Assembly (NCBI GenBank): GCA_016181275.1
Contig: JACOZQ010000026.1
Location: 1 to 37,955, forward strand
Length of the DNA: 37,955 bases
Direction of reading: 5' to 3'
Origin: Candidatus Woesearchaeota archaeon
GTDB taxonomy: Archaea > Nanobdellota > Nanobdellia > SCGC-AAA011-G17 > ARS1403
How positions within the stretch are numbered: position 1 is the first letter of the stretch; each line of letters starts with the position of its first letter. The notes beneath the pieces are model-generated. The model saw nothing but the letters and a program-made list of their open reading frames with translations. It searched no databases and was not told the DNA's origin. This document shows, piece by piece, positions 3,771 through 23,803 of this stretch. Position numbers and translations under genes: made by a program.

Positions 3771-4739
3771 ATGGCAAAGAAGAAAAAGAAAAGATATCCA
3801 AGAGACGAAGCATTATATAATCTAGCACAAGAATATGAAGTATTCTTTTTCTTAGATTATCTGCCGGAAGCGGCTCACATAGTGGCAGGGAATAAGGACT
3901 TATGGACCGGATCTGGCAGGCCACCAGAAAAACTTTATGACATTCTGGTTTGCTTGGCAATCCAGCATTACATAGGATTTTCTGACAGAAGAAGCATTGG
4001 AATGATCAAGCTGCTAACACAAGCTAGGAAAATCCAAGTTAAAATTCCCAGTTTTAAGACACTTAATAATTATAGGAATAATGATCAAATCAAGCCTTAC
4101 TTAGATAAGATTCTTGAGGTTCTTTCCAAGCCTCTCTCTGAAGTTGAAACAGAATTCTCCACTGATGCAAGTGGAGAAAGAACCTCCAGTTCATCAAGCT
4201 GGTATAACATAAGGACAAGAAAGAAAATCAGGAAGAAAGATCATGTTACAACACATGTTTCCTCTACAAGAAAATTCAACATGCCTGTGGCAGTTGAAGT
4301 TTCTGCCAGTAGAGGAAAAGATAATGTGCACTTCAGGCAGCATGTAAGAAAAGTGTGTAAAAACTTTACCATTGACGAATGGAGTGGAGATGGAATGTAT
4401 GCTTCAAGAGACAACTGCAATGCTCTTGAAGACGTTAATGCAGTTCCTTACTTCAAGATTAAGAAAAGTTTTACTCCAAAACCAAAGGGCTCTCCTTTGT
4501 GGAAGCAGATGGTATTGAAAGCAAGAAATAATCCTGATGATTATGACAGACATTATCATAAGAGAAGTAATAGTGAGTCTACTTTCTCTGCCAAGAAGAG
4601 AAAGTTTGGAGATTCTTTGAGGTGTAAACATGATACTGCTAAAGAGAATGAAAGCATGTTGAAATGGGTTTGCTATGGATTTACTGCTCTTGCAAGAGCA
4701 GCAACCACATTAGATATTGAGCCTAATTTTTACACATAG
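3771..4739 (+). CDS. DDE transposase of the insertion sequence
   Basis: 322 residues. Catalytic residues fit the DDE_Tnp_1 fold of IS4/IS5-type elements: Asp132 in FSTDASGERTS, Asp207 in SGDGMYASRDN, and Glu269 in SNSESTFSAKKRKFG with the usual S/T and R/K spacing after it. A basic N-terminus (KKKKKRYPRDE) and an N-terminal helical DNA-binding region precede the core. It is preceded by an AGAAGGGTAACC leader with a weak ribosome binding site. The stop codon lies inside the right terminal repeat, so gene and element end together. The complete triad and length suggest an active enzyme that cuts and moves this element. Confidence 0.9.
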   Translation: MAKKKKKRYPRDEALYNLAQEYEVFFFLDYLPEAAHIVAGNKDLWTGSGRPPEKLYDILVCLAIQHYIGFSDRRSIGMIKLLTQARKIQVKIPSFKTLNNYRNNDQIKPYLDKILEVLSKPLSEVETEFSTDASGERTSSSSSWYNIRTRKKIRKKDHVTTHVSSTRKFNMPVAVEVSASRGKDNVHFRQHVRKVCKNFTIDEWSGDGMYASRDNCNALEDVNAVPYFKIKKSFTPKPKGSPLWKQMVLKARNNPDDYDRHYHKRSNSESTFSAKKRKFGDSLRCKHDTAKENESMLKWVCYGFTALARAATTLDIEPNFYT

Positions 4740-10836: not shown

Positions 10837-13800
10837 CTATCCAAAATATGTCGGTACTTCTTTTCTTATTGCAGCTCCCCTTGCCGATTTAAAAAAACGT
10901 TCTTCAATCATCTTGTAAGCTTCCAGATCATCTTCTGTTATGCTTGCTCTTGTCTTCTTCAATGCTTCTTCAAAATGCTTCATATTTATCTCACTGGATT
11001 TTATATTCTCCCTTAATGCGAGCAGGCCAGCTTCTCTGCATACATTTTCTATGTCAGCTCCCGTATATAATTTTGTCTCCTTCGCCAGCTTTGTCAAATC
11101 AACATCAGTAGCCAAAGGCATGTCTTTTGTATTTATTGTAAATATTTCCAATCTCGATTTCTCCTCAGGCACTGAAACTAAAATCATCCTGTCAAATCTT
11201 CCAGGCCTTAATAAAGCTGGATCTAACATATCAGGACGATTAGTTGCCGCAACAACAATTACATCGTGCAATTCTTCCAAGCCGTCCATTTCTGAAAGTA
11301 AAGTATTTACAATTCTTTCAGTAACTCCTGAATTATCATAACCTCCTCTTCTTGGAACTAATGCATCTATTTCATCAAAGAATATAATTGCCGGCGTTAA
11401 CTGGCGAGCTTTTTCGAAAACTTTTCTTACTCCCTTCTCCGACTCTCCCACGAATTTATTTAACAACTCAGGACCTTTTACCAAAATAAAATTTGCTTGT
11501 GATTCGTTTGCAACTGCTTTTGCCAGCAATGTTTTACCACAGCCAGGTGGACCATATAGCAATATTCCTCTTGGTGGTCTTATACTCAAATTTTTGAATG
11601 CATTTGGATATTTCAAAGGCCATTCAACAGCCTCTTTCAGCTCCTGCTTTGTTGATTCTAATCCTCCAACACGATTCCATTTTACATTTGGTATCTCAAC
11701 TAATATTTCACGCATTGCAGAGGGTCTTACAATTTTCAAAGCTTCCTGAAAGTCTTCATTTGTAACAATTAATTTTTCTAAAACTTCTTTTGATATTGGC
11801 TCTTTTTCCTGCAACTTTATGTCTGGCAATAATCTACGAAGAACATTCATTGCTGCTTCCTTTGCAAGAGCTGAAACATCTGCTCCAACAAATCCATGAG
11901 TTACCTCTGCTAATTTTTCAAGCTTTACATCTTCTGTCATCGGCATGTTTCTTGTATGAATTTTTAAAATATTCAATCTTCCTTTTTTATTAGGAACTGA
12001 AATTGGAATTTCCCTGTCAAATCTTCCGGGACGCCTTAATGCCGGATCAATTGCATTCGGTCTGTTAGTTGCTGCGATGACTACAACTTTTCCACGACTT
12101 TTCAAGCCGTCCATCATCGACAACAATTGAGCTACAACTCTCCTTTCCAGCTCACCATGAACATCTTCTCTTTTTGGAGCGATTGCATCAATCTCATCAA
12201 TGAAAATAATTGATGGTGCATTTTTCTCTGCATCTTCAAATAACTGCCTTATGCGCTTTTCCGAGTTATGGACTATGAAACCATTTGCAATAAAATTATG
12301 ATTTTTTGGAACAGTAAAATCGTAAACATGATTTTCAGATTCTTCAATAATCTTGACCGGGCTCCATATAATATCATTGTCTTTCAAAATCCTTATCTTC
12401 TCTATCGTTGTATGATCTTCCCCTAATTGTTTCAATAGGATAATAAATTTCTCAACTTGCTGTCTCGAAAATGCTTCTATATTTGGATTCAGACCTTCTC
12501 TGATAAGCTTTCTCTTTGATAAATTATGTTTTTCTATAATTTTGTTTATGAATTTTGCTAGGGGGATTCTATTGTAAACCGGCTTTGAATATTTTAAATC
12601 TAACTTACTTTCGAGCGTTTCTTTTCTCTTCAGATGGTTTAATTTTATTTTTTCCTTAAATACATCTAATGATTCTTTATCGCTTATTGTAAGCTCATAA
12701 GTCCCATCTTTTTTAAATCTAAATGTTGATTGTATCCCGAGCCTTAATAGCAACAATTTTACTCCATTGAGCATTTGTTTGCTTGAAGTATAATAAGAGA
12801 TTTGCATTCCTCCTGGAACGAGATGCACATGTCCGTCTGTATCAAACAAACCTTGCAAATATGAAGCAATATAATCTTTTGGTAATCCGATCATATAAGA
12901 CGGCACGATTACTGTTTTAGATTTATTCTTAACAGGGATGCCCAGATTCTTTAGCAGATTCCCTATTGGCCTGGATGAGAAATAATAACCATATTTACCA
13001 TCACATTTAAGGTCGTCAATTTCAAATAATTCCTTTACGATTCTTCTATATTCATTTACTACTTTTTCATCTGCATTTATTAAAGATATTGTGGATACTC
13101 CTTTGTCTTTGTAATTGTACCTTAAATGCCCATCTCCTGCTAAGAGCCCTAATAAAAATAGTAAATCCTTGTTTATCTTTGTTGGTATTGATCCTTTTCT
13201 AGTTAATTTTAATCTGTCTAGGAACCCTGGTTTGTGTAATTTTTTAATGATCCATGCAGGAGCAGATTCATTATGCTTATGATCATTTATTTTCTTTGCA
13301 GTTACCCCTAGAAATTCTGCAACATCTTTATTCTGACCATGTAAGTTAAATAAGTCTTTTATCCACCCTCCAGAAAATGAAACATTATCATCTATAAAAT
13401 CCAAAATCTCTGGTATTGACTCATTTATCTCGGGCAATGCATTTGCAATAGCAACCCTATCTTCAGGTTTAAGATCCTGGGCAAGAACCCAAACAGGTTC
13501 TAAATCTTTTAAAGTTAATAATTTTGATGTTGGTGTTAATTCAATAAATCCATGTGGGGTTGCTATCTTTAAAGTTTTTTGCACTCCTTTATCATAAGTA
13601 TCTGAAATTGGCAAAAGCTCTGATTTTTGGTTTTCCATATTTATTGCTGCTATCTTATGAGTCTTTCCTTCTTTAGCTGCTTCTTCTATTGTTGTTAATC
13701 CTGCTCCATTAGTTATTATCAATGAATCTTTAGCAACACATTCTCCATAGTATTTATTCATAATTTCCGGACCGTTAACTAAAATGAAATGCGCATCAGA

Positions 13801-14607
13801 TTCGTTTGCAACTGCTTTTGCCAGCAATGTTTTACCACAGCCAGGCGGACCATGCAGCAAAACTCCAGCTGGCGGCTCAATTCCTAATCTCTTAAAAATT
13901 TCTGGATGTCTCATCGGGAGCTCGATCATCTCTCTAATTTTCTTTACTTCTTCTGATAATCCGCCAATGTCTTCATAGGTAACTTCTGGAATTGATTCTT
14001 CAACAACATCAACTGCTTTTGGATTTACACTTATTTGAGTTGTTTCTGTAACTATAACTGGCTGTTTTGGATTTGCTTCTACAACAATAAATTTTAATGA
14101 AGAGAAACCAAAATTATCGAAGAATGTATCTTCAAAATTAAATATATCCTCGAAGAATGGTGATTCTGCTAAAGTTCTGCGCCTTCTTCTTGTTCCACCT
14201 AAAGCAACTATATCTCCTTTTACTAAAGCCCTTCCCAATAAACCGCGCTTGAAAACATCCGGATGAGCTTGAACCATTATCCCTTTTTGAGCTGGAGCTA
14301 TTGCAATCGTCTTTGCTTCTTTTACTTCTGCCTGCCTGACTTTTACAGTTTCGCCGATGCCTGTTTTTGCATTCCTTCTTAAAATTCCGTCCATCCTTAT
14401 TATTGACTGGCCGACATCAGATGGATAAGCTCGATCAATAACACCGACGGTGACTCTGCTCCCTTCTATTTCCACAACATCACCAGGGCGAACCCCAAGA
14501 AGATTCATTGTATGGCTGTCTATTCTGACTATCCCTTTGTAAGCTTCTTCCTGCAAAGCTTCCATTACTTTCAGTTGAACTTCTTTTTTATCAATGATTT
14601 CAGCCAT
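10837..14607 (-). CDS. CDC48/VAT AAA ATPase with an in-frame intein
   Basis: 1256 codons; without the intein the mature protein is 764 residues, normal for archaeal CDC48 (VAT, p97). It unfolds proteins, often feeding the proteasome. N-domain: a double-psi barrel at about residues 1-90, then a second lobe to about 190. D1: Walker A GPPGCGKT at 253-260, [12 protein letters not shown], and Walker [11 protein letters not shown] after the intein. D2: [31 protein letters not shown] and sensor TNRPD. The C-terminus is KEVPTYFG. The intein interrupts YYGE-SEKR of D1. The gene overlaps the upstream zinc/AbrB regulator gene by eight bases, so expression is probably coupled. Confidence 0.95.
12265..13740 (-). 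other. Intein with LAGLIDADG homing endonuclease, within cdc48
   Basis: 492 residues (290-781 of the precursor). The N-terminal splice residue is Cys290 (YYGE, then [12 protein letters not shown]). The C-terminal end is [13 protein letters not shown] followed by extein Ser782, with the usual penultimate His and final Asn. Two LAGLIDADG helices, [11 protein letters not shown] (about 485-495) and [12 protein letters not shown] (about 583-594), make it a DOD-type homing endonuclease with apparently intact acidic residues (Asp492, Asp591). The block B motif reads LTPTSKLL, where most inteins have T-x-x-H, so the histidine that assists the first acyl shift is replaced by Ser. Insertion at the conserved D1 motif fits inteins choosing the least variable site. 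Confidence 0.93.
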
Positions 14608-14959
14608 TTTTGCTCCACATTCTTTTTCTGAAAAATATGCTCAATTTTTCTGGTTCTTCCAATGCCATGAAAAGCATATTATTTAACTTCTTTTGTATTT
14701 CATCTTGGTAATCAATTATCTCTCTCGGTATTGAAACTGTGTAAGAATTTCCTACCATTCTTAATTTTACTTGAAACTGCTTGTTTCTTATTTTAGAAAA
14801 ATGCTCTAATTTCTGCTCATCTTCTGGATGTAGATATGTCTTGCCACAATTATTACACTCTAAAGCCCGAACACAGAATCCATTTTTAATGACTTCAGTC
14901 TTCTCCATTTTTGTGTCACAGTCATCACACAAAACCCTGGCATTAAATAAATCTGACAT
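14600..14959 (-). CDS. Zinc ribbon + AbrB/MazE-like DNA-binding regulator
   Basis: 119 residues. The N-terminal half has two CxxC pairs (VLCDDCD and [10 protein letters not shown]), a zinc ribbon of the YgiT kind. The second half, [20 protein letters not shown], is a swapped-hairpin AbrB/MazE fold, followed by a helix and a basic tail. It is probably a transcription regulator or antitoxin-like protein. The palindrome at 14975-14995 in its own promoter is a likely operator. The protein at 35155 has the same two-part plan and a related palindrome nearby. The end overlaps cdc48 by eight bases. Confidence 0.75.
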
Positions 14960-14995: not shown

Positions 14996-15022
14996 TAAAT
15001 TTATAAATCTTTCGGTTAGTTT

Positions 15023-15180
15023 TGCTGTGAACGTTTTCGATTTCAAACCGAACGGAAACTCAAGCGATTCTCACAGCATTTTTCACAAATCACAAAATTA
15101 TAGTCCTTAATCAAAGGCACGAATGCGTTGCTCGAGAACGGCTCTAAGGAGTCATCCCCTCGTGCGCTAAGGCAGACTAT
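15023..15180. ncRNA. Candidate structured RNA, class unknown
   Basis: This stretch without a gene is visibly more GC-rich than its surroundings and folds in two domains. Domain 1: TGCTGTGA (15023-15030) pairs with TCACAGCA (15071-15078), and inside it GTTTTC (15033-15038) pairs with GGAAAC (15054-15059). Domain 2: ATAGTC (15100-15105) pairs with GACTAT (15175-15180), CTTA with TAAG just inside, GCACGA (15117-15122) with TCGTGC (15160-15165), and GGCTC-TAAG-GAGTC (15140-15153) forms a capped hairpin. On the plus strand a TATA-like box at 15000-15007 precedes it and a T-rich run (TTTTCATTTT) follows, which favours that strand. It does not show the core motifs of tRNA, RNase P or SRP RNA that I would expect. 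Confidence 0.45.
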
Positions 15181-15182
15181 TT

Positions 15183-15326
15183 TCATTTTATTAGATTCTT
15201 GAATAGAATTTCATCGCTACATGAAGCACATAACATAATTTCAATTTTGATTTTATCAGTTGGGTGATAAAAATATTTATTCAATTCTTTTACTTTATAG
15301 CACTTTATGCATTTACCTACTGTCAT
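15183..15326 (-). CDS. 47-residue zinc mini-protein coupled to the transposase
   Basis: Begins MTVGKCIKCYKVKELNKY and contains a second pair MLCASCSDE, so two CxxC knuckles about 23 residues apart form a probable zinc ribbon, followed by a short helix (EILFKNLIK). The ATG at 15326 overlaps the transposase stop as ATGA, the classic coupling arrangement. It could bind the transposase, DNA or RNA. Nothing else is recognisable. Confidence 0.65.
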   Translation of the reverse strand: MTVGKCIKCYKVKELNKYFYHPTDKIKIEIMLCASCSDEILFKNLIK

Positions 15327-16417
15327 ACGGAAGTCCTCCAAGAATCATCAAGGTCAAATGGAAAATCAATCTTATCATGGAAATAAGCTAAAATTAAGCA
15401 CCTAATATTGTGGCAGGCAACCCTTAACAAGAGCTCATTAATCCTTGCAGTATGGTTTTTGTGCCTTGTGAAATCCGATAAAACTGTTTTGAGCATATGA
15501 AAGGATGCTTCAACATTGGCTCTTAATGAATATCTTCTTTTTTCTTTTTGCTCAGCATCTTCATAATATCTTATTACATCTCTCTTCCATGAAGTATAAT
15601 CCATTGGCTTTGCTACCGTGTTCTCTTTCGGTTTTACATACAATTTTATGTTTAAAGATTCACAGAAGAAACTGTGCTTTTTTGAATGATATGCAGTATC
15701 AACATAGATTTCTTTAATATGAAATTTTTCTTTTGTTTTCAAAACAAGCTCTTCAAAGAATTTACTATCGTGCTCATATCCTTTAGCTACAATTGCATAA
15801 GGAATAACGTGGCTATTTACTCCGCAGATTGCATGCAATCCTGTATAACTTCTTTTCTTCTCTTTATCTGTTCTAATATCTTTATATCGCCTTTTCCCGC
15901 TACTCTCCTTAAATCCCGTTCCATCGCATGCGAAAAAATTCTCATTTTGGATTAAAGGCTCGCTTAATCTTGTAATTAATTTTTGTATATAAGGAGTAAG
16001 GGAAGGGTCATTAATGTAATCATTAATTCGGTTGAAGTAATTATCTGAGAAATTCGTGGCTTTCAGATAATTTTCATTATAAGCTGATTTAACATGATAT
16101 ACTGTTCGTCTTGCTCCACGAAGATGATACTGCTTGACACAGCCAATGATTATTTTTTCTTTTAACGGAACGGATTTTCTTCCTGTTCCTTTATATCCAT
16201 TTGGCAGATTTAAAGTTAATAGTGTATTGTTTAGGATCTTTAGAAAAATATAAGGCTCCCATTGATGTGCTTGATTAATTGCGGTAAAATCCCTTTTTAT
16301 CTTCCTCAATCTTTCTGCTTTTCTGAATTCCTCTAAGCTAGATTGCTTTAAATTTGGAATTGGAGAATTCCAAAAATCTCTTTGCCAGAAGTCCCTAAGA
16401 TTTGTATCCCTATCCAC
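15323..16417 (-). CDS. DDE transposase-like protein in an operon with an exonuclease
   Basis: 364 residues. DDE_Tnp_1-type core: Asp165 (FFACDGTGFKES), Asp240 (IYVDTAYHSKKH) and Glu303 (NVEASFHMLKTVL), with an N-terminal helical region and a conserved-looking GTGRKSVPLKEKI segment. The only possible start near the front is GTG at 16417, which shares its first base with the TAG of the exonuclease gene (TAGTG). Its stop overlaps the next gene as ATGA. I found no terminal inverted repeats or target duplication by eye around it, unlike the element at 3631. It may be an insertion sequence whose ends I cannot see, or a domesticated transposase. It is not close to the other transposase in sequence. 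Confidence 0.85.
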   Translation of the reverse strand: MDRDTNLRDFWQRDFWNSPIPNLKQSSLEEFRKAERLRKIKRDFTAINQAHQWEPYIFLKILNNTLLTLNLPNGYKGTGRKSVPLKEKIIIGCVKQYHLRGARRTVYHVKSAYNENYLKATNFSDNYFNRINDYINDPSLTPYIQKLITRLSEPLIQNENFFACDGTGFKESSGKRRYKDIRTDKEKKRSYTGLHAICGVNSHVIPYAIVAKGYEHDSKFFEELVLKTKEKFHIKEIYVDTAYHSKKHSFFCESLNIKLYVKPKENTVAKPMDYTSWKRDVIRYYEDAEQKEKRRYSLRANVEASFHMLKTVLSDFTRHKNHTARINELLLRVACHNIRCLILAYFHDKIDFPFDLDDSWRTSV

Positions 16418-16938
16418 TAGACAACACCCATCCTTTTTAATCGTTCATAAATCTGGTAAGTCAGAAAGACATCATGACCGCAGTAGGTTGTAATTTCATC
16501 TATTTTCTTTTCCTTCCATAGCTTGGCTACATCCTCTCCATTTTTTATTTTTTTGAACTTGTTTCCTGAAAAAAACTTTGCATAATCGTCTAATGTTCCT
16601 TTCTTGAACTTATTTCCATAAGAAAGCACGAAGCGTAAATCTGTTACTCTACCTTTAATGTCTGGCATCTTAACTCCGTGCTTAAAGCTTCTTACAAGCA
16701 GATAAGGGATATCAAAAGTAAAGCAGTTGAATCCAATTATCCTGAAATATCCTTGAAAAACAGGCATACTCCAGAAGTTTTCAAGAAGCCTTTTTTCAGA
16801 GTCTTCAGCTAAAACTGTAATAAATTGTCTATTCTCTATATTGCACCTAACACCAATGCAGATAACCCTTGCATCATCTTCAAGAGGATCTAAAGTTGTT
16901 GTTTCGATGTCGAAGATTATTTCCTTTGTATTTGACAT
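16417..16938 (-). CDS. DnaQ/PolB-like 3'-5' exonuclease
   Basis: 173 residues from MSNTKEIIFDIETTT; GAGGTGAAGGG about 12-20 bases upstream supports this start over earlier ones. RNase H-fold exonuclease of the DEDDy type: ExoI FDIETT (Asp10, Glu12), ExoII IGFNCFTFDIPYL (Asp76), and ExoIII YCGHD (Tyr152, Asp156). The family (predicted PolB-like exonucleases) degrades DNA or RNA from 3' ends. The domain stands alone with no polymerase. Translation is probably coupled to the transposase-like gene (TAGTG). The promoter, TATA at about 16991-17000 on this strand, carries three GCATA repeats spaced ten bases apart over the predicted transcription start. Confidence 0.85.
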   Translation of the reverse strand: MSNTKEIIFDIETTTLDPLEDDARVICIGVRCNIENRQFITVLAEDSEKRLLENFWSMPVFQGYFRIIGFNCFTFDIPYLLVRSFKHGVKMPDIKGRVTDLRFVLSYGNKFKKGTLDDYAKFFSGNKFKKIKNGEDVAKLWKEKKIDEITTYCGHDVFLTYQIYERLKRMGVV

Positions 16939-16960
16939 TGTCCATCTCCCTTCACCTCTT

Positions 16961-16985
16961 GCATATCTATGCATATATACGCATA
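16961..16985 (-). promoter_or_regulatory. Phased GCATA repeats over the exonuclease operon start
   Basis: GCATA occurs at 16961, 16971 and 16981, exactly ten bases apart, so all copies face one side of the helix. The TATA-like CTTATAAATAG (reverse strand, 17001-16991) predicts a start near 16970, inside the repeats. This is a typical position for a repressor in archaea. Confidence 0.5.
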
Positions 16986-17041
16986 CTTTACTATTTATAA
17001 GCTTATCCGACAGATTTACGAAAGGTTTATATATTACATAT

Positions 17042-17063
17042 GCAGAAGTATGCATAGGGCATA
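17042..17063 (+). promoter_or_regulatory. GCA(T/G)A repeats over the start of the antitoxin-like gene
   Basis: GCAGA at 17042, GCATA at 17052 and GCATA at 17059, with TATGCATA palindromic at 17049-17056. The TATA box TTTATATA at 17026-17033 predicts transcription from about 17056. The same repeated element lies over the divergent exonuclease promoter, so one regulator may control both. Confidence 0.5.
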
Positions 17064-17071
17064 GTTTGGAG

Positions 17072-17203
17072 GTGGTTTTTATCACAAAAGACAAGGCTGT
17101 TGTTATCCGTATCATGAAGTCCACAAGGGACAAACTTAGAAGCATTGGTAAGTATGCGGATACATATGATTCCATTATTTTAAGATTAATTGGCAAGAAA
17201 TAA
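17072..17203 (+). CDS. Small antitoxin-like DNA-binding protein
   Basis: 43 residues from GTG 17072 (TTG at 17066 is also possible). The sequence reads VVIRIMKSTRDKLRSIGKYADTYDSIILRLI in its core; the STRDKLRSIGKYADTYD part followed by IILRLI matches small archaeal VapB-like antitoxins, where a strand is followed by two helices (DUF7557-like, from memory of the pattern). No toxin gene of the PIN type follows. It is divergent from the exonuclease operon and shares repeated GCATA elements with it, so it is a good candidate for the regulator of both. Confidence 0.6.
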   Translation: MVFITKDKAVVIRIMKSTRDKLRSIGKYADTYDSIILRLIGKK

Positions 17204-17381
17204 TTTCTATTTTCTATTATTGTTATTTGTACCAAAAAACTTTTTTCTTTTTTTGTTTGTAGCATTAAAAGGAAGAGTTCTCTTTGGAGATATAAATAGC
17301 CATAACTTCGATGCGGTAACTATAATTCTTGCCTTAGAGAGTATAGTTTCCGCTTCGGGAACCTTTTTATATTATTTTTGA
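17190..17381 (+). CDS. Possible small two-helix membrane protein
   Basis: An open frame of 63 residues from TTG 17190 (or TTG 17220) overlaps the end of the preceding gene. It contains FFLFLFVALKGRVLF and AVTIILALESIVSASGTFLYYF, two hydrophobic stretches around a polar GDINSHNFD turn. No clear promoter or ribosome binding site supports it, and T-rich DNA easily yields hydrophobic frames. It may equally be untranslated. Confidence 0.3.
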   Translation: MARNNFYFLLLLFVPKNFFLFLFVALKGRVLFGDINSHNFDAVTIILALESIVSASGTFLYYF

Positions 17382-17390
17382 GTAATTGTT

Positions 17391-17900
17391 ATGATGGTTG
17401 AAAGGATTCTTACTAACAATGAAAAAAAGTTTTTGACTATTGTAGTAGGATGTTATAATATTGGCATAGGTGTTCAATGGAAAGCATTATATGATGCTGA
17501 ATTGAGCAGAGGAAGAATCCATGAAATATCAAAAAAGTTTAGACGGGAGGGATTAATAGAAAAAGATAGTTACAATGTTAGAAAAGAGAAAATAAAAGAG
17601 GTAAAAGAACTTTTAAAATATAACCAAGAAATTGAAGAGGGATATCATAGGATTTGGAAACCTTTTTTATTATTTATGATTCTTTTTGTAATTGCAGTTA
17701 TTCTATTAATAATCTCTTTTTGGATCCATCAATCATCCCCAGAACAACAAATAAACATTCAAGAAGCTTTAAAGATTGATATTCCAGTACATGGTTATAC
17801 TCCTGGTGAGAATATAACCCCATTAAATGAATCTCAAATGAAAATATTTTGTAAAGTATTAGTGCCTGAAAACAATTTATCTATTTGTAATCAATATTAA
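17391..17900 (+). CDS. Winged-helix protein anchored by one membrane helix
   Basis: 169 residues. Residues 1-65 look like a winged-helix DNA-binding domain (LSRGRIHEISKKFRREGLIEKDSYNVRKEK resembles recognition helix plus wing; shown here as separate segments LSRGRIHEISKKF and RREGLIEKD). One membrane helix lies at about 88-112 (FLLFMILFVIAVILLIISFW). The remaining 55 residues, with two cysteines near the end, would be outside the cell. It is a plausible membrane-bound sensor-regulator, but no family is identified. The 3' end overlaps the convergent lipoprotein gene by 20 bp. Confidence 0.65.
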   Translation: MMVERILTNNEKKFLTIVVGCYNIGIGVQWKALYDAELSRGRIHEISKKFRREGLIEKDSYNVRKEKIKEVKELLKYNQEIEEGYHRIWKPFLLFMILFVIAVILLIISFWIHQSSPEQQINIQEALKIDIPVHGYTPGENITPLNESQMKIFCKVLVPENNLSICNQY

Positions 17901-18507
17901 TCTGTGTTTCTTTCTGGATATCCTGTAATCCTTTCTCTCCTAAATTATAGCAGGTAGCCTCATACCAAATGGTCCTATAACTCTTTGTTGGATCTGGTTC
18001 GATTAAAATCCTCATGCTATCTTTACTCTGTTTTAAGATAGTCTGAGTCCATTCATCATTAATAGCCCCATCATAAAACTCCTTTGTTTCACAATTAATG
18101 GCTGTTTCTCCAGAGTTTTCAAACCATAAATAGAAATAAATATTGTCACCAGAATTTGATTGTAAGGGATTCGCAGCTTCTAATCCTGTCCTACTTCCGA
18201 TCCATAACCTTGAAAGTTGAGGTGCTGGTTTAAATGGTCTTTCAAATTCAGGAACAGCCTGAACTGGTTCTTCTATCTTTGCAGGTTCTGGATTTTGTTG
18301 TTCATCATTATCACATACTTTATTGTTATTTTGATCTAAACAGCATCCAGTTCCAAACCTAATATAAGGAGATTCACATACAACTAATTTATCGATATTT
18401 TCAGATGCAATCTCTTTTGCCAATTTCTCATCAACTTGACAACCTTGTCCTGAAACTAAAAAAACAGTCAATAAAATTCCGAATAAGATTAGTTTTTTCT
18501 TCATCAT
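17881..18507 (-). CDS. Secreted lipoprotein-like protein with Ca-binding-like loop
   Basis: 208 residues from the double ATG at 18507. Signal sequence MMKKKLILFGILLTVFLVSG is followed by QGC, so Cys23 could be a lipid attachment site. A cysteine-rich segment with CCLDQNNNKVCDNDE resembles the DxNxNx(C)DxDE loops common in secreted proteins of Pacearchaeota-type archaea and probably binds calcium. After a proline-rich linker, the C-terminal 110 residues (LWFENSGETAINCETKEF, TIWYEATCYNLGEKG) look like an immunoglobulin-like beta domain of the CARDB kind. Substrate or partner unknown. It shares its promoter region with the divergent ribbon-helix-helix gene. Confidence 0.7.
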   Translation of the reverse strand: MMKKKLILFGILLTVFLVSGQGCQVDEKLAKEIASENIDKLVVCESPYIRFGTGCCLDQNNNKVCDNDEQQNPEPAKIEEPVQAVPEFERPFKPAPQLSRLWIGSRTGLEAANPLQSNSGDNIYFYLWFENSGETAINCETKEFYDGAINDEWTQTILKQSKDSMRILIEPDPTKSYRTIWYEATCYNLGEKGLQDIQKETQINIDYK

Positions 18508-18510
18508 TCT

Positions 18511-18563
18511 AATGTACACATACACGAAAACTCCTATATAAATCTGTCGTTTACAGGTACATT
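18511..18563. promoter_or_regulatory. Divergent promoter with mirrored AATGTAC/GTACATT sites
   Basis: AATGTAC at 18511-18517 and GTACATT at 18557-18563 are exact inverted copies placed symmetrically around one TATA-like CTATATAAAT (about 18534-18543). Transcription starts about 25 bp to each side would fall on these two sites. The adjacent ribbon-helix-helix protein is the likely ligand. Confidence 0.5.
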
Positions 18564-18591
18564 ATAGAATCTGTTGGTTAGAGGTGAAATT

Positions 18592-18732
18592 ATGAGAAAG
18601 AAATATACAAATGTAGCAATCCCCGAAGAACTAGCCAGTGCTGTTGATTCTTTTATTCAAAAAAATAAACTCGGGTTTAGGAGCAGAGCAGAATTTGTTA
18701 TTGAAGCGATTAGGAATAAGCTTAAAAAGTAA
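18592..18732 (+). CDS. Ribbon-helix-helix regulator
   Basis: 46 residues: KKYTNVAIPEELASAVDSF, then GFRSRAEFVIEAIRNKL. The beta strand (YTNVAIP), helix 1 and the SRAEFVIEAI helix 2 are typical for archaeal RHH proteins of the MetJ/CopG fold, which bind DNA as dimers through the paired strand. GAGGTGA at 18581-18587 is its ribosome binding site. It stands first in the plus-strand run that leads to the ATPase-protease pair and sits beside mirrored promoter sites, so it may control both itself and the lipoprotein gene. Confidence 0.8.
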   Translation: MRKKYTNVAIPEELASAVDSFIQKNKLGFRSRAEFVIEAIRNKLKK

Positions 18733-18760
18733 TTTCTTTTCTGATTATTAGTGGACAAAG

Positions 18761-19081
18761 ATGAGTAAAAAATCAAAAAGAGAGGCATATTTTATCCTTG
18801 CCCAGATTTTAGCAATATTATCTGGTAGTTTATTTGTTGTTGCTGGATTTTTTATCAATGCTTCAGCAAACTATCATTCTGCTATCCAAACAAATAATGA
18901 GCTTATTTATCAAGTAAAAACTATTGAACCGAACGCACTTCCTTATTTGAGGGAATCCAACAATCTTTTAGGTAAGATGCAACTTTCTGCCTATAACTAT
19001 TTCAAGTGGTTTTTAATTATAGGGGGTTTAGTTTCACTTGGCTCATTAATTGCTTGGTTTAGGGGTTATAAATCAAAATAA
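18761..19081 (+). CDS. Small two-helix membrane protein
   Basis: 106 residues, not recognised. Hydrophobic helices lie at about 10-32 (YFILAQILAILSGSLFVVAG) and 82-100 (WFLIIGGLVSLGSLIAWF). The 50-residue loop (SANYHSAIQTNNELIYQV...) is probably outside and helical, and both ends are basic and inside. It starts 28 bases after the ribbon-helix-helix gene and is probably co-transcribed with it. Confidence 0.65.
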   Translation: MSKKSKREAYFILAQILAILSGSLFVVAGFFINASANYHSAIQTNNELIYQVKTIEPNALPYLRESNNLLGKMQLSAYNYFKWFLIIGGLVSLGSLIAWFRGYKSK

Positions 19082-19090
19082 ATCATTTTC

Positions 19091-19136
19091 GAGGCAAAAT
19101 AAGGAATTTGAGGCAAAAAATTAGAAACCTTTAAAT
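19091..19136 (+). promoter_or_regulatory. Promoter with paired GAGGCAAAA repeats
   Basis: GAGGCAAAA occurs at 19091-19099 and 19110-19118, 19 bp apart, followed by the TATA-like TTTAAAT at 19130-19136 for the gene at 19169. The promoter of the next gene has two TTGTGCA sites with the same 19-bp spacing. Confidence 0.4.
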
Positions 19137-19168
19137 CCAAATTCATATTCTCTAATAGATATATTCAA

Positions 19169-19372
19169 ATGCCAAGAGTAAAAGAAACAGGAAAATACAT
19201 TTACAGGATTGCTGAAGCTGAATTAAAGAAAAAAGCCAGTATGCCAGATTTAGTTCTAATCCCCGATAAGAAATACAAGAAAAGAAATGTTATGAAGCTT
19301 AAATTTGTTAAATACAATCCTAAGACTAAATCTATAACTTTTAAGGTTACAAAAAGAGATCATAAATTCTGA
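19169..19372 (+). CDS. Small basic protein upstream of the ATPase-protease pair
   Basis: 67 residues, strongly basic (KETGKYIYRIAEAELKKKAS, KKYKKRNVMKLKFV, KVTKRDHKF) and rich in beta-type sequence in the second half. No membrane segment, cysteine pair or known motif. It could be a nucleic-acid binding accessory of the adjacent defence-like pair or independent. It has its own TATA-like box about 33 bp upstream, with two direct repeats before it. Confidence 0.6.
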   Translation: MPRVKETGKYIYRIAEAELKKKASMPDLVLIPDKKYKKRNVMKLKFVKYNPKTKSITFKVTKRDHKF

Positions 19373-19378
19373 GTTTTT

Positions 19379-19430
19379 GTGCAGAAACCTCATTATTGTG
19401 CAAAGCCACGATTTTCAAAAGATTTAAATA
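19379..19430 (+). promoter_or_regulatory. Promoter of the ATPase-protease operon
   Basis: TATA-like TTTAAATA at 19423-19430 predicts transcription from about 19452, giving a 12-base leader before the ATG at 19464. Upstream, GTGCA occurs at 19379 and 19398 (TTTTTGTGCAGAAA, TTATTGTGCAAAG), 19 bp apart, as a possible regulator site. Confidence 0.4.
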
Positions 19431-19463
19431 GCCCTTCATTTTTTATACTATATCTTCAATAAT

Positions 19464-20642
19464 ATGGCAAAAAATTCAGAAAAAGAGGCTAATCTTCAAA
19501 TCAATCATGTATCTGAGCTACTTAAGATAATTGAAGGAGGATTGCAAATGGATTCATCAAAAGTTCTTAACTATTCATTGCTTCTTATTCAAAAACTAGA
19601 AAAAAACAATGATTTTGAGAATGCTCAGAAAATAAAGAATATTCTCAAAAGAACAAAATCTGTATCTTTATCTCCAAAAGGATTGTCTTTAGAATATGCC
19701 CGAATACCTGTTGATACGGAGTCAAGACTGCCCCTTGCAGAAGTTAAAAATTACTTTGAAGATGAAGTATTTTTAGCCTTTAATGAAAAACTAATGGAGG
19801 ATATAAAAGAGTTTATCCTTTTATTAAAGGAACAAGACAACCTTCCTAGTATAAAAGTATACCGAAATTTATTACTGTATGGGCCTTCTGGAACTGGGAA
19901 AACTCAAACAGCTAAATATATTTCAGCTAAAACAGGTCTTCCACTGGTTACTGTAAGAATTGATGGTTTGGTTTCTTCTTATCTTGGAAGTACTTCGAAG
20001 AATATTCGAGCGTTATTTGATTTTATTGAAAAAACTCCTTGTATTTTATTTTTAGATGAATTTGACGCTGTAGCTAAAATGAGAGATGATGCAAATGAAC
20101 TTGGAGAATTAAAAAGAGTTGTGAATTCATTGTTACAAAATATAGATGGTCTTCTAGGAAAAGTACCAATTATTGCAGCTACCAACCATCAACACTTATT
20201 AGATCCCGCTGTTTGGAGAAGATTTGATTATAAAATGCTAATAGATTATCCAAATGAAAATGAGAGAGAGCACTTGGTAAGGAAATTTTTAAGCGATTCT
20301 AAATTTAATGATAACCTCTATAAAATAATGTCTGCCTTAACTGAAAAAATGAGTGGTGCAGAAATTGAAGTTTTGTCTAATATGATAAAAACTAAGATAG
20401 TATTGGAACCAAATAAAAGGTTGGATGAAAATAGATTATTAGAATTATTTTTAAGATATAACCGAAGAGTTATCCATTTTAGTAAAAATAAGGATGGTCT
20501 AGAACAAGATGATGGGCTTATCTTAATGAAGAGTTTGAGAAAACAAAATAAGAATTTATTTACCATTGATATCTTATCTAAAATGTTTGGAATGTCTACT
20601 GGAAAGATAAGTACTTTTCTAAGGGAGGAGAAAAATGAATGA
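19464..20642 (+). CDS. ietA: AAA ATPase of an IetAS-like defence pair (IetA)
   Basis: 392 residues. An N-terminal helical region (1-75) precedes a classic AAA module: Walker A LLLYGPSGTGKTQTA (GPSGTGKT at 140-147), Walker B ILFLDEFDA (about 194-202), sensor AATN (238-241), and paired arginines WRRF (252-253) in the arginine-finger position. The last 40 residues (FTIDILSKMFGMSTGKISTFL) look like a small helix-turn-helix. The gene ends inside the protease gene (8-bp overlap), so the products are made together. AAA ATPase + subtilisin-like protease pairs of this form are the IetAS system, first noted for plasmid incompatibility and later shown to give phage defence in bacteria. The assignment rests on architecture and motifs. 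Confidence 0.8.
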   Translation: MAKNSEKEANLQINHVSELLKIIEGGLQMDSSKVLNYSLLLIQKLEKNNDFENAQKIKNILKRTKSVSLSPKGLSLEYARIPVDTESRLPLAEVKNYFEDEVFLAFNEKLMEDIKEFILLLKEQDNLPSIKVYRNLLLYGPSGTGKTQTAKYISAKTGLPLVTVRIDGLVSSYLGSTSKNIRALFDFIEKTPCILFLDEFDAVAKMRDDANELGELKRVVNSLLQNIDGLLGKVPIIAATNHQHLLDPAVWRRFDYKMLIDYPNENEREHLVRKFLSDSKFNDNLYKIMSALTEKMSGAEIEVLSNMIKTKIVLEPNKRLDENRLLELFLRYNRRVIHFSKNKDGLEQDDGLILMKSLRKQNKNLFTIDILSKMFGMSTGKISTFLREEKNE

Positions 20643-22974
20643 AGGTAAGCCCCTTCTCCCCATTCGTATAGTTCAACCTAGTAATGATTACTTTCATCAA
20701 AAAGAAGGTGGTGGTGGACCAGTAAAATACTTCATCGATGAAGCACATTTTAATGAACATACAAATCGCCTTGCTAATGAAATAAAAAATATTCAAAAAG
20801 AATTACAAGATAATTTTAATGAATTCCCAGATCTTCCTAACGTAATAAAAATAAAACTAAATGATAAAGCCTTAGCGAAATCTAATAGACCTAAGAAATT
20901 GTTAGATAAAGATACTTGTCCAATAATAGGTCATGGACAAATTGGAGAAATTTTACTCAGTGCAACTAATGAAGGGTTAAAAAAATTAGAAAACAAAATA
21001 GAAACTACAAAGAATAAAGTTGAGAAGGCAAATCTTACAGCAATTCAAGATTTTAGCTCAATAGAATTAAATGAAAAAACCCAAGGTTTAGATGTGAAAG
21101 AGATATACTCCAGATCGTTAAGAGAAGGAAAAAGCTATCTAAAGGTAATTCTATTTGATCATCAGGATGATGGGCTCAATAAAAAGTGTGTTGAGAGACT
21201 TTCTGAATGGTGTGAAAAAGAAAAATTACATTTAGAAAATATCTCAAAACTAAAAAAAGTTAAAATTTATCGGTTGTCTGGTGCTGACGAAGTTAAAATA
21301 AAATCAATAGCCAAACATCCTTCTGTAAGAAAAGTTTCATTTTTTCCTTTATATCGTATTATTGTACCTCTTTCTGCATTTAAAACAGACATAGAAAAAA
21401 AATTTCCTAAACCTCAAGAAGGAGCTGATTACCCTCTGGTGGGGGTTATTGATTCTGGCATTCCCAAAGACCATCCTATACTTGCACCTTGGATAATCCA
21501 CCAAGAAACATTTGTACCTCCAAACTATCAGGACCCTTATCACGGTTCTTTTGTTTCTGGTTTAGTAAGTATGGGCAATCAATTTAATGGAAAAGAAGTT
21601 TGTCCAGAAGATGAAGTAATAAAAATTCTTGACTTACAAATAATTCCAAAGCCAAAAATGCACTCTTCGGATATTGGAGATACCTTGACAGAGGACGATT
21701 TGATTACTAGACTTCAAGAAGCAATACCTAGTTTATCTTCTAAATTCAACATAAGGATCTGGAATATGTCTATTAGTAAAGGACAAGAATGTCAAGAAGA
21801 AGAATTCTCTGATTTAGCCAAAATTCTAGATGAACTTCAAGAAGAAAGCGAAATACTTTTTGTTATACCTTCTGGAAATTTTGAGGGCGAAGCGCAGAGA
21901 ACTTGGCCACCACCTAATTCACTAACCGGTGATAGACTGCAAATACCGGGAGATTCTGTAAAAGCCATTACTGTTGGTGCCCTTACTTTTAAGGAGAGAG
22001 CAGATAGTGTTGTAAGATCTTATGAGCCTGCAAGTTATTCTTGTAAAGGACCAGGTCCTTCATTTATAATGAAACCAGAACTTGTTCACTTTAGCGGGAA
22101 CATATCAAAATTAAAAAATGGAGACATTGATTTCTCAAAACAGGGAATAGTTTCAACAGATGCACAGGGTAATCTAGTTGAAGATGTTGGAACTAGTTTT
22201 TCTACTCCTTTAGTTGCGAGAACATTGAGTCTAATAGAATATAATCTTGCCGATAAACCTTCCTTGAACTTAGTTAAAGCACTTGCAGTACATAACGCTT
22301 CATTACCCAAGAAGATAGGTAATATGCAGAAAATCTTTCCTTATGTTGGCTATGGGGTCCCTTCTTCAATCTCGAATATATTTAATTGCGATGAGCATGA
22401 GATGACTTTAATATTTGAGCAAGGGGTCTACAATGGATTTACATTAGATTATCCTTTTGGGTGGCCTACCTCTCTGAAGGATGAAAATGGAAAATGTAAT
22501 GGAAAAGTTAGGATGACCTTAGTTGCTCAGGTTCCTGTTGATAGTAATTTCGGTTCTGAGTATATAAGAGCCAACGTCTCAGCATCTTTGCAAAGAAGTA
22601 AATTTAATCAAAGAAAAAATAAAGAAGAATGGAAGGGGGTTATTGGAGAAGAACCCGATAATAAAAAGTTAAAAAAAGTTTATGGAAGAAAACTAATAGA
22701 ACAAGGTTTCAAATGGAAGCCTATAAAGAGATATGAGAAGTGTATAAAAAAAATAGAAGCTAAGAAATGGAGAATACGTGTTGATTTGCTCTTAAGGAAT
22801 GAATTTAAACAAGATCCAAACAAACCAATAAACTTTGCTTTGTTGTTTACAATTTCCGATCCAGAAGAAAAGGCTCCAGTTTATACAGAAGTGGTGCAGT
22901 CTCTTAGAGATTTAAATGTTTTAACTGAATTGATTCAGTTAAGGTCCCAACTAAGACAGAAGTTGAGGTCTTAA
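20635..22974 (+). CDS. ietS: Subtilisin-like serine protease of the IetAS-like pair (IetS)
   Basis: 779 residues, S8 family. The catalytic residues are all present: Asp273 (VGVIDSGIP), His303 (PYHGSFVSG), Asn415 of the oxyanion hole (VIPSGNFEG) and Ser521 (VGTSFSTPLVA). The N-terminal 250 residues, with SNDYFHQKEGGGGPVKYF near the start, are the long prodomain-like extension I associate with IetS proteins. The C-terminal 200 residues contain beta-rich sequence and end in a charged helix. There is no signal peptide, so it acts in the cytosol, consistent with control by the ATPase. ATG 20635 lies within the ATPase gene as ATGAATGA. An active protease with its own ATPase suggests infection-triggered proteolysis. 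Confidence 0.85.
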   Translation: MNEGKPLLPIRIVQPSNDYFHQKEGGGGPVKYFIDEAHFNEHTNRLANEIKNIQKELQDNFNEFPDLPNVIKIKLNDKALAKSNRPKKLLDKDTCPIIGHGQIGEILLSATNEGLKKLENKIETTKNKVEKANLTAIQDFSSIELNEKTQGLDVKEIYSRSLREGKSYLKVILFDHQDDGLNKKCVERLSEWCEKEKLHLENISKLKKVKIYRLSGADEVKIKSIAKHPSVRKVSFFPLYRIIVPLSAFKTDIEKKFPKPQEGADYPLVGVIDSGIPKDHPILAPWIIHQETFVPPNYQDPYHGSFVSGLVSMGNQFNGKEVCPEDEVIKILDLQIIPKPKMHSSDIGDTLTEDDLITRLQEAIPSLSSKFNIRIWNMSISKGQECQEEEFSDLAKILDELQEESEILFVIPSGNFEGEAQRTWPPPNSLTGDRLQIPGDSVKAITVGALTFKERADSVVRSYEPASYSCKGPGPSFIMKPELVHFSGNISKLKNGDIDFSKQGIVSTDAQGNLVEDVGTSFSTPLVARTLSLIEYNLADKPSLNLVKALAVHNASLPKKIGNMQKIFPYVGYGVPSSISNIFNCDEHEMTLIFEQGVYNGFTLDYPFGWPTSLKDENGKCNGKVRMTLVAQVPVDSNFGSEYIRANVSASLQRSKFNQRKNKEEWKGVIGEEPDNKKLKKVYGRKLIEQGFKWKPIKRYEKCIKKIEAKKWRIRVDLLLRNEFKQDPNKPINFALLFTISDPEEKAPVYTEVVQSLRDLNVLTELIQLRSQLRQKLRS

Positions 22975-23191
22975 TCCCATGCAACTCTTATCTATTTCCG
23001 TGCAGAATTATATTCCAGTACAAAACCCAATAACAAATGAAAATAGATGTGGATAGCCTGCCTAGTGCCTAAAATTAGGGATTTTTAACAAAAATGGAGG
23101 AAAAAAGTAAGCTTAAGGACTTTCCGTTCGAAAATGGGCTTTTCGTTCACAACAGGTTAGTTTCTTAAGCTTTCTTTAACTACTTTATTTT
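22975..23191 (+). other. Spacer with an inverted repeat and a 24-codon micro-ORF
   Basis: No full gene fits here. AAGCTTAAG at about 23109-23117 recurs inverted as CTTAAGCTT near 23163-23171, enclosing about 45 bases with TTCGAAAA and TTTTCGTTC. A micro-ORF from ATG at 23095 (MEEKSKLKDFPFENGLF...) spans it, ending TAA near 23169. The stretch CCTAAAATTAGG plus TTTTT at about 23071-23090 could end the protease transcript. Confidence 0.3.
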
Positions 23192-23803
23192 ATGATTAAT
23201 AGTGGCTGTTTATTGTTTGAAAAATATGAGAATGAGATAACATGCATTTATGGAGAAGCAAGCACTGGAAAGACGACGTTCGTAAAACTGGCTGCAATTG
23301 AGCAGACTGGAAAAAATAAAAAAGTCGTTTACATCGACACTGAAAATAGTTTTAACACTGAAAGAATAAAACAGCTTGCTGGAGATAATTTTCAAAACGT
23401 CTTAGATAATATAATTTTATTTAAGCCGAGAAGGTTTTCCGAGCAGAACCAGATTATAAAATTCCTTCCTGGCATAAAAAATATTTCCTTGATAATTATA
23501 GATACAATAAGTTATTTTTACAGAGTCAAAGTAAAAGAAAAGCCTAAAGTATATAACATGTGGATGAGCAGGCAATTTTCAATTCTAAATGAGCTGAGCA
23601 AAAATATTCCAATCATAATAACAAACCAAGTTTATAATAAAGTAGATAAGAATGAAATCACAATGGTTGGCGGAGAGATGTTCAAAAAATTGAGCAGTAG
23701 AATAATAAGACTTGAGAAAACTCCGAGAAGAATTATTTTTGAGAAACCTGCTGGAGAAAAAATTAACTTTGAAATAAAGGGCAATGGAATTTTCAATCTA
23801 TAA
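23192..23803 (+). CDS. radB: RadB, archaeal RecA/RadA paralogue
   Basis: 203 residues, the usual RadB length. RecA-fold ATPase with Walker A GEASTGKTT (21-29), KVVYIDTENSF (Walker A-linked glutamate region) and Walker B ISLIIIDTISYFY. There is no N-terminal helix-hairpin-helix domain, which separates RadB from RadA. The C-terminal half carries IPIIITNQVYN and the RLEKTPRRIIFEKPAG edge typical of RadB. It assists or modulates RadA in recombinational repair. Stop codons of this gene and the convergent transporter gene overlap by six bases. Confidence 0.88.
   Translation: MINSGCLLFEKYENEITCIYGEASTGKTTFVKLAAIEQTGKNKKVVYIDTENSFNTERIKQLAGDNFQNVLDNIILFKPRRFSEQNQIIKFLPGIKNISLIIIDTISYFYRVKVKEKPKVYNMWMSRQFSILNELSKNIPIIITNQVYNKVDKNEITMVGGEMFKKLSSRIIRLEKTPRRIIFEKPAGEKINFEIKGNGIFNL

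Follow-up and report, generated by a model that had tools for sequence, protein, structure and literature searches.

The window, that is, the whole 37,955-bp stretch of archaeal DNA analysed here, contains a transposon of 8132 bp (15023-23154). This element encodes an IS5-type transposase, several passenger proteins, and an AAA ATPase and a subtilisin-like protease, termed IetA and IetS (Table 1).

Table 1 Features of the transposon and its target site in the window.
Feature	Position	Strand	Basis or remark
Left 9-bp target-site duplication, GGTTAGTTT	15014-15022		Exact repeat at 23155-23163; homology to sister genomes stops here
Left terminal inverted repeat, TGCTGTGAACG...CGAACGGAAA	15023-15058	+	End-motif search
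IS5-type DDE transposase	15323-16417	-	D165, D240 and E303 intact; 3' end toward the left end of the element
3'-5' exonuclease-like protein (DNA_pol_B_exo2 / RNase_H_2)	16417-17265	-	True start probably near 16941
Passenger with one transmembrane helix	17391-17900	+	ORF and helix analysis
Passenger, putative lipoprotein or exported protein	17881-18525	-	ORF analysis
Small ribbon-helix-helix (RHH) protein	18592-18732	+	Pfam RHH_1, E = 0.008, under curated cut-off (weak)
Two-helix membrane protein	18761-19081	+	ORF and helix analysis
Small basic protein	19169-19372	+	Net charge +15
IetA	19464-20642	+	392-aa AAA ATPase; PADLOC IetA PDLC02196, E = 5.3e-124
IetS	20635-22974	+	779-aa cytoplasmic subtilisin-like protease; PADLOC IetS PDLC02197, E = 1e-204; Pfam S8, E = 2e-24
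Right terminal inverted repeat, TTTCCGTTCG...CGTTCACAACA	23121-23154	-	End-motif search
Right 9-bp target-site duplication, GGTTAGTTT	23155-23163		Copy of 15014-15022

An earlier reading of this DNA, made from the letters and ORFs only (the sequence-only reading), had taken the ATPase and the protease for a pair of the IetAS form and proposed a profile search. The PADLOC profiles for IetA and IetS matched the two proteins end to end, at residues 14-391 of 392 and 8-774 of 779, respectively. The NCBIfam models IteA and IteS also matched IetA (E = 1e-115, 386.9 bits) and IetS (E = 3e-166, 554.9 bits), below the equivalog cut-offs of 510 and 900 bits, which are a naming threshold and do not define the wider IetAS family. 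Because the scores fall under these cut-offs, identity of function appears less certain, and the family assignment is unaffected; many bacterial IetAS pairs are likewise annotated merely as an ATPase and an S8 peptidase. IetA possesses a Walker A motif (GPSGTGKT, G140-K146), a Walker B motif (LFLDE, D198 and E199), and an arginine pair (R252/R253), and the key residues of the ATPase site were invariant in an alignment of 45 IetA proteins. D273, H303, N415, and S521 of IetS were all present and invariant among 46 IetS proteins. No hydrophobic export signal was found at the N terminus of IetS, where the maximum Kyte-Doolittle score over 19 residues was -0.49 (1.07 overall). These data agreed with the sequence-only reading, which had reported intact ATPase residues, a full Asp-His-Asn-Ser set, the lack of an export signal, and an 8-bp overlap between the genes (20635-20642). 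The overlap was rejected as a signature of the family, as it was seen at only 15 of 158 junctions.

The distribution of the pair was investigated by a search with the IetA alignment, and 80 loci from named genomes and 80 from viral contigs were retrieved. An IetS match accompanied IetA, in the order A then S, in 166 of the 175 IetA-matching loci, which include three sister-genome loci matching by Cdc48 only. The closest pair was that of a Ca. Nanohalarchaeota MAG (identities were 53% for IetA and 47% for IetS), and the closest bacterial IetS proteins were approximately 32-36% identical to that of the window. In the IetS tree, which the sequence-only reading had also called for, the window protein lay inside IetAS and formed a clade with the Ca. 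Nanohalarchaeota copy (support 99), apart from other archaeal copies. IetS proteins of Bathyarchaeia, Thermoplasmata, and a 'Crenarchaeota' MAG fell elsewhere, among bacterial copies; hence archaea probably gained IetAS more than once. IetA or IetAS was also observed in Bathyarchaeia, a 'Crenarchaeota' MAG, and Methanoplasma (L042, L046, L054, L074, and L075); those of them included in the IetS tree grouped with Bacillota-type copies, pointing to separate bacterial transfers. Profiles, synteny, and tree thus placed the two proteins with IetA and IetS rather than with unrelated AAA and subtilisin families, in a pairing that recurs in other genomes, and the IetAS form was upheld.

The pair resembles bacterial IetAS, an anti-phage and plasmid-incompatibility system, in gene order, tight junction, the combination of an AAA ATPase with a cytoplasmic S8 protease, full-length profile matches, the complete set of catalytic residues, and the mobile-element setting. 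It differs in its archaeal host, in scoring under the NCBI equivalog cut-offs, and in being carried by an IS5-type transposon instead of a plasmid, a prophage, or an integrative island. Judged by sequence, the pair is an archaeal relative of the bacterial defence and toxin-antitoxin system IetAS. The vicinity of the AAA core of IetA to FtsH, PAN, and Cdc48 would also suit a housekeeping protease pair for quality control with no link to conflict. However, the top profiles are those of IetA and IetS, their distribution is patchy and mobile, and, of 371 genomes of the window's phylum, a single one contained a full-length IetS, on an insertion absent from sister genomes; we regard a housekeeping role as extremely improbable. 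S8-domain profile matches in 100 genomes of the phylum were not accepted as IetS; the strongest were other kinds of subtilisin with unrelated neighbours.

We next describe the boundaries of the element. The motif TGTGAACG-N(8-24)-CGAACGGAAA had two matches in the 942-kb genome, which were the element ends (15026 and 23151) in opposite orientation. Its reversed control had no match in this genome, and the motif was absent from the other genomes of the phylum that were searched. When 20,000 pairs of regions were drawn at random from the window, no other place equalled the combination of a 9-bp duplication with 10 of 11 inverted bases. Aligned with gaps, the two ends scored no better than shuffled sequences; the significance of the ends is derived from the uniqueness of the motif, the duplication beside the repeats, and the empty sites described below. 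The G+C content of the element (0.325) was similar to that of its flanks. Since a single copy is known, we can only infer that the element is still able to move.

The transposase matched Pfam DDE_Tnp_1 (E = 1e-14, 55.2 bits against a cut-off of 23) and, under the cut-off, NCBIfam IS5_2 (E = 1e-24); no close relative was found in plasmids or viral contigs. The transposase, the inverted ends, and the 9-bp duplication resemble those of IS5-family insertion sequences, in which a duplication of this length occurs in the IS903 subgroup. Canonical IS5 elements contain one gene and span approximately 1-1.5 kb. In contrast, the present element measures 8.1 kb with passenger genes and misses the NCBIfam IS5 cut-off. 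On account of this size and cargo, we concluded that it is a cargo-carrying transposon rather than an insertion sequence. A second IS5-type transposase gene (3771-4739, + strand) was observed in the window; its product was 26% identical to the element's transposase and approximately 48% identical to that of a 1.2-kb insertion sequence in another genome (G120), and no ends were found for it.

The element sits between two divergent genes, at 14600-14959 and, radB-like, at 23192-23803. In three sister genomes, G031 and G180 of one genus and G372 of another, both flanking genes are neighbours separated by 96-468 bp; the window contains 8.1 kb extra at this position. The flanks, when joined with a single GGTTAGTTT, aligned to these genomes, which represent three empty sites. 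We also considered that an ordinary insertion sequence had landed beside a separately gained IetAS island, with no single transposable unit. The small size of canonical IS5 elements agrees with such independent events, as does the position of the transposase, which lies 300 bp from the left end, farther than in most related elements. However, the end motif occurs only at 15026 and 23151 and not on the other side of the transposase, the duplication encloses the full 8.1 kb, precisely this stretch is missing from the sister genomes, and transposase relatives in the phylum likewise sit in multigene units. Two independent events are accordingly very improbable.

The genome (942 kb, completeness 92.8%) was described by the sequence-only reading as archaeal and probably DPANN. 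The archaeal part stood, as shown by the flanking genes (FEN-1, topA, CDC48, and RadB-like); a DPANN host is plausible from the small genome and its relatives. The reading had also considered a defence system of over 4 kb notable in a reduced genome. The pair is real, but it lies inside a transposon; therefore, the cost is that of the mobile element, and the pair is not necessarily an ancestral system that was retained. Another small gene (approximately 100 aa) was observed at the same intergenic site in G180 (L014, 5287-5754), which may mark this site as a hot spot for the gain of genes. In addition, the neighbouring CDC48 (10837-14607, - strand, 1256 aa) has an intein-like insert at approximately residues 290-780, which is present in G180 and absent from G031 and G372, and is thus patchy among close relatives.

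Three small genes for an RHH, a two-helix, and a basic protein precede the pair, and their ORFs were found as reported by the sequence-only reading, which had proposed them as lineage-specific sensors or regulators. Co-directional and shortly upstream of IetA, they might form a five-gene system in which they sense or regulate IetAS. However, in a comparison of the kind that the reading had suggested for related archaea, none of the three had a recognisable homologue near any of the other IetAS pairs examined (approximately 160, among them the closest one, from Ca. Nanohalarchaeota). The two-helix protein had no homologue in 99 genomes of the order. Furthermore, a TATA-like stretch, TTTAAATA, occurs at approximately 19423 upstream of IetA, suggesting that IetA has its own promoter, separate from the upstream genes. 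We consider a five-gene system very improbable, and the proposed sensor role was not borne out; since no homologues accompany other IetAS pairs, the three proteins are best seen as passengers.

Relatives of the transposase were present in 65 of the 371 genomes of the phylum, and the regions around 60 transposase sites were retrieved. At 23 loci, corresponding to 22 distinct elements of 2.3-8.8 kb, we identified GGCTTTG-type inverted ends with an exact 9-bp duplication. No such element was obtained when the right flank was swapped or the duplication was read 4 bp off. A first control, with one flank reversed, gave 7 unspecific matches in 60 and was replaced by this motif-based test. The window transposase is approximately 31% identical to those of the GGCTTTG-ended elements, lies on a long branch outside their clade, and belongs to an element with TGCTGTGAACG ends. 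In view of these differences, we propose a common plan for the elements and do not claim a single transposon family. The Ca. Nanohalarchaeota MAG with the closest IetAS pair has only a distant transposase (31%), and a search around its pair revealed no convincing transposon ends.

Recognised defence or conflict genes, namely restriction-modification, GmrSD, or DarT genes, were identified by Pfam in 15 of the 22 elements. The cargo included N6-methylases of the type I/IIG kind (L241, L246, L251, L252, L253, L264, and L271), several of them accompanied by HsdR-like or specificity domains or by a nuclease close by; type III ResIII and Mod (L277/L278); N6/N4 methylases (L243 and L272); a C5 methylase with a MutL-like ATPase, once with Vsr (L255 and L257); GmrSD with M.Eco57I (L259); a GmrSD_N-HNH protein with an EcoRI-type methylase (L256); and DarT-macro (L254). 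In a PADLOC scan, individual methylase families were represented by up to 7 of the 69 cargo proteins; among 72 size-matched flanking proteins, no family was represented more than once. IetA matches among the flanking control genes were discarded, as they were most likely Cdc48 (4e-75 on the IteA model). We lean towards the view that IS5-type transposons serve generally as carriers of immunity in the phylum, with complete defence systems as exchangeable cargo. If so, restriction-modification, GmrSD, DarT-macro, and IetAS are all carried between short inverted ends, and neither conjugative plasmids nor large defence islands would be needed for small archaeal genomes to acquire and shed their defences.

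To consider how the pair could act, the predicted structures were inspected. The IetS model (pLDDT 91, pTM 0.93) consisted of an N domain, a propeptide-like region (approximately residues 166-241), an S8 catalytic domain (approximately 266-568), and a C-terminal beta domain (approximately 589-741), and the nearest solved folds included the pro-subtilases 3afg and 3whi, and also KP-43. Residues 166-241 showed the beta-alpha-beta-beta-alpha-beta order of a subtilisin propeptide immediately N-terminal to the catalytic domain, which suggests a zymogen-like restraint of IetS. The IetA model (pLDDT 88) showed a helical N-terminal domain, a classical AAA core similar to FtsH, PAN, and Vps4 by Foldseek, and a C-terminal helix pair. 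This C terminus (residues 368-391; 20565-20639) resembles a helix-turn-helix and is partly conserved family-wide; through it, IetA may regulate its own operon.

An IetS-like protease (S025, the toxin) and an IetA-like ATPase (S026, the antitoxin) form a functional module on the Salmonella island SGI1, which this toxin-antitoxin pair maintains (PMC5006074). The likeness lies in the proteins and their mobile element; SGI1 is an integrative mobilizable island, and function was shown there and is assumed by analogy here. We favour restraint of IetS by IetA on the basis of the propeptide-like fold and these protease-toxin homologues. IetS, as a cytoplasmic protease with an internal propeptide-like domain, would normally be kept inactive by bound IetA, presumably as a ring, as assumed from the AAA family. 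Infection or a competing replicon would disturb IetA, and the released or activated IetS would cleave cell or virus proteins, halting growth and virus production. If the element were lost, the protease would be deprived of its partner, and the pair would thereby also stabilise the transposon by addiction. We infer the toxicity of IetS, its trigger, and its targets, as well as an antiviral or toxin-antitoxin function of the pair in this archaeon.

Retention of the transposon might be the sole function of the pair, with no antiviral role. The maintenance of SGI1 by S025/S026 (PMC5006074) and the plasmid location of many bacterial IetAS pairs speak for such a pure addiction module. On the other hand, PADLOC and NCBIfam catalogue bacterial IetAS as anti-phage, and the related elements mainly carry restriction-modification genes, although these can be addictive too. 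Pure addiction is therefore the less likely reading, albeit one with some weight. From what was established here, namely profile-based membership, active sites, conserved pairing, transposon ends, and empty sites, we consider it probable that IetAS is cargo of an IS5-type transposon in which restrained IetS provides both defence and addiction.

According to published surveys, DPANN archaea possess few of the known defence systems, and the acquisition route is left open; neither Iet nor insertion sequences appear in the main text of a survey of archaeal immunity from 2026 (PMC12988326). No report of defence-carrying IS5-type elements was found in open-licence papers, which is weak evidence of absence. 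The IetAS family itself is known. What is novel is the carrier, together with a trend, apparent in this phylum, for IS5-type elements to bear defence genes. Here, a defence system was observed along with its carrier, for which the precise termini, the target duplication, the transposase, and the unoccupied sites in sister genomes are all at hand. Element boundaries also offer a direct route to unknown defence genes, since the cargo of 7 of the 22 elements is entirely unrecognised. These seven bounded elements (L250, L261, L265, L270, L273, L279, and L282) encode an NYN domain, a PD-(D/E)XK nuclease, DUF1828/1829, and unknown proteins, which are candidate novel defence systems. Finally, an identical 8209-bp type III restriction-modification element with the same 9-bp duplication was observed in two genera of one family (L277 in G349 and L278 in G329).
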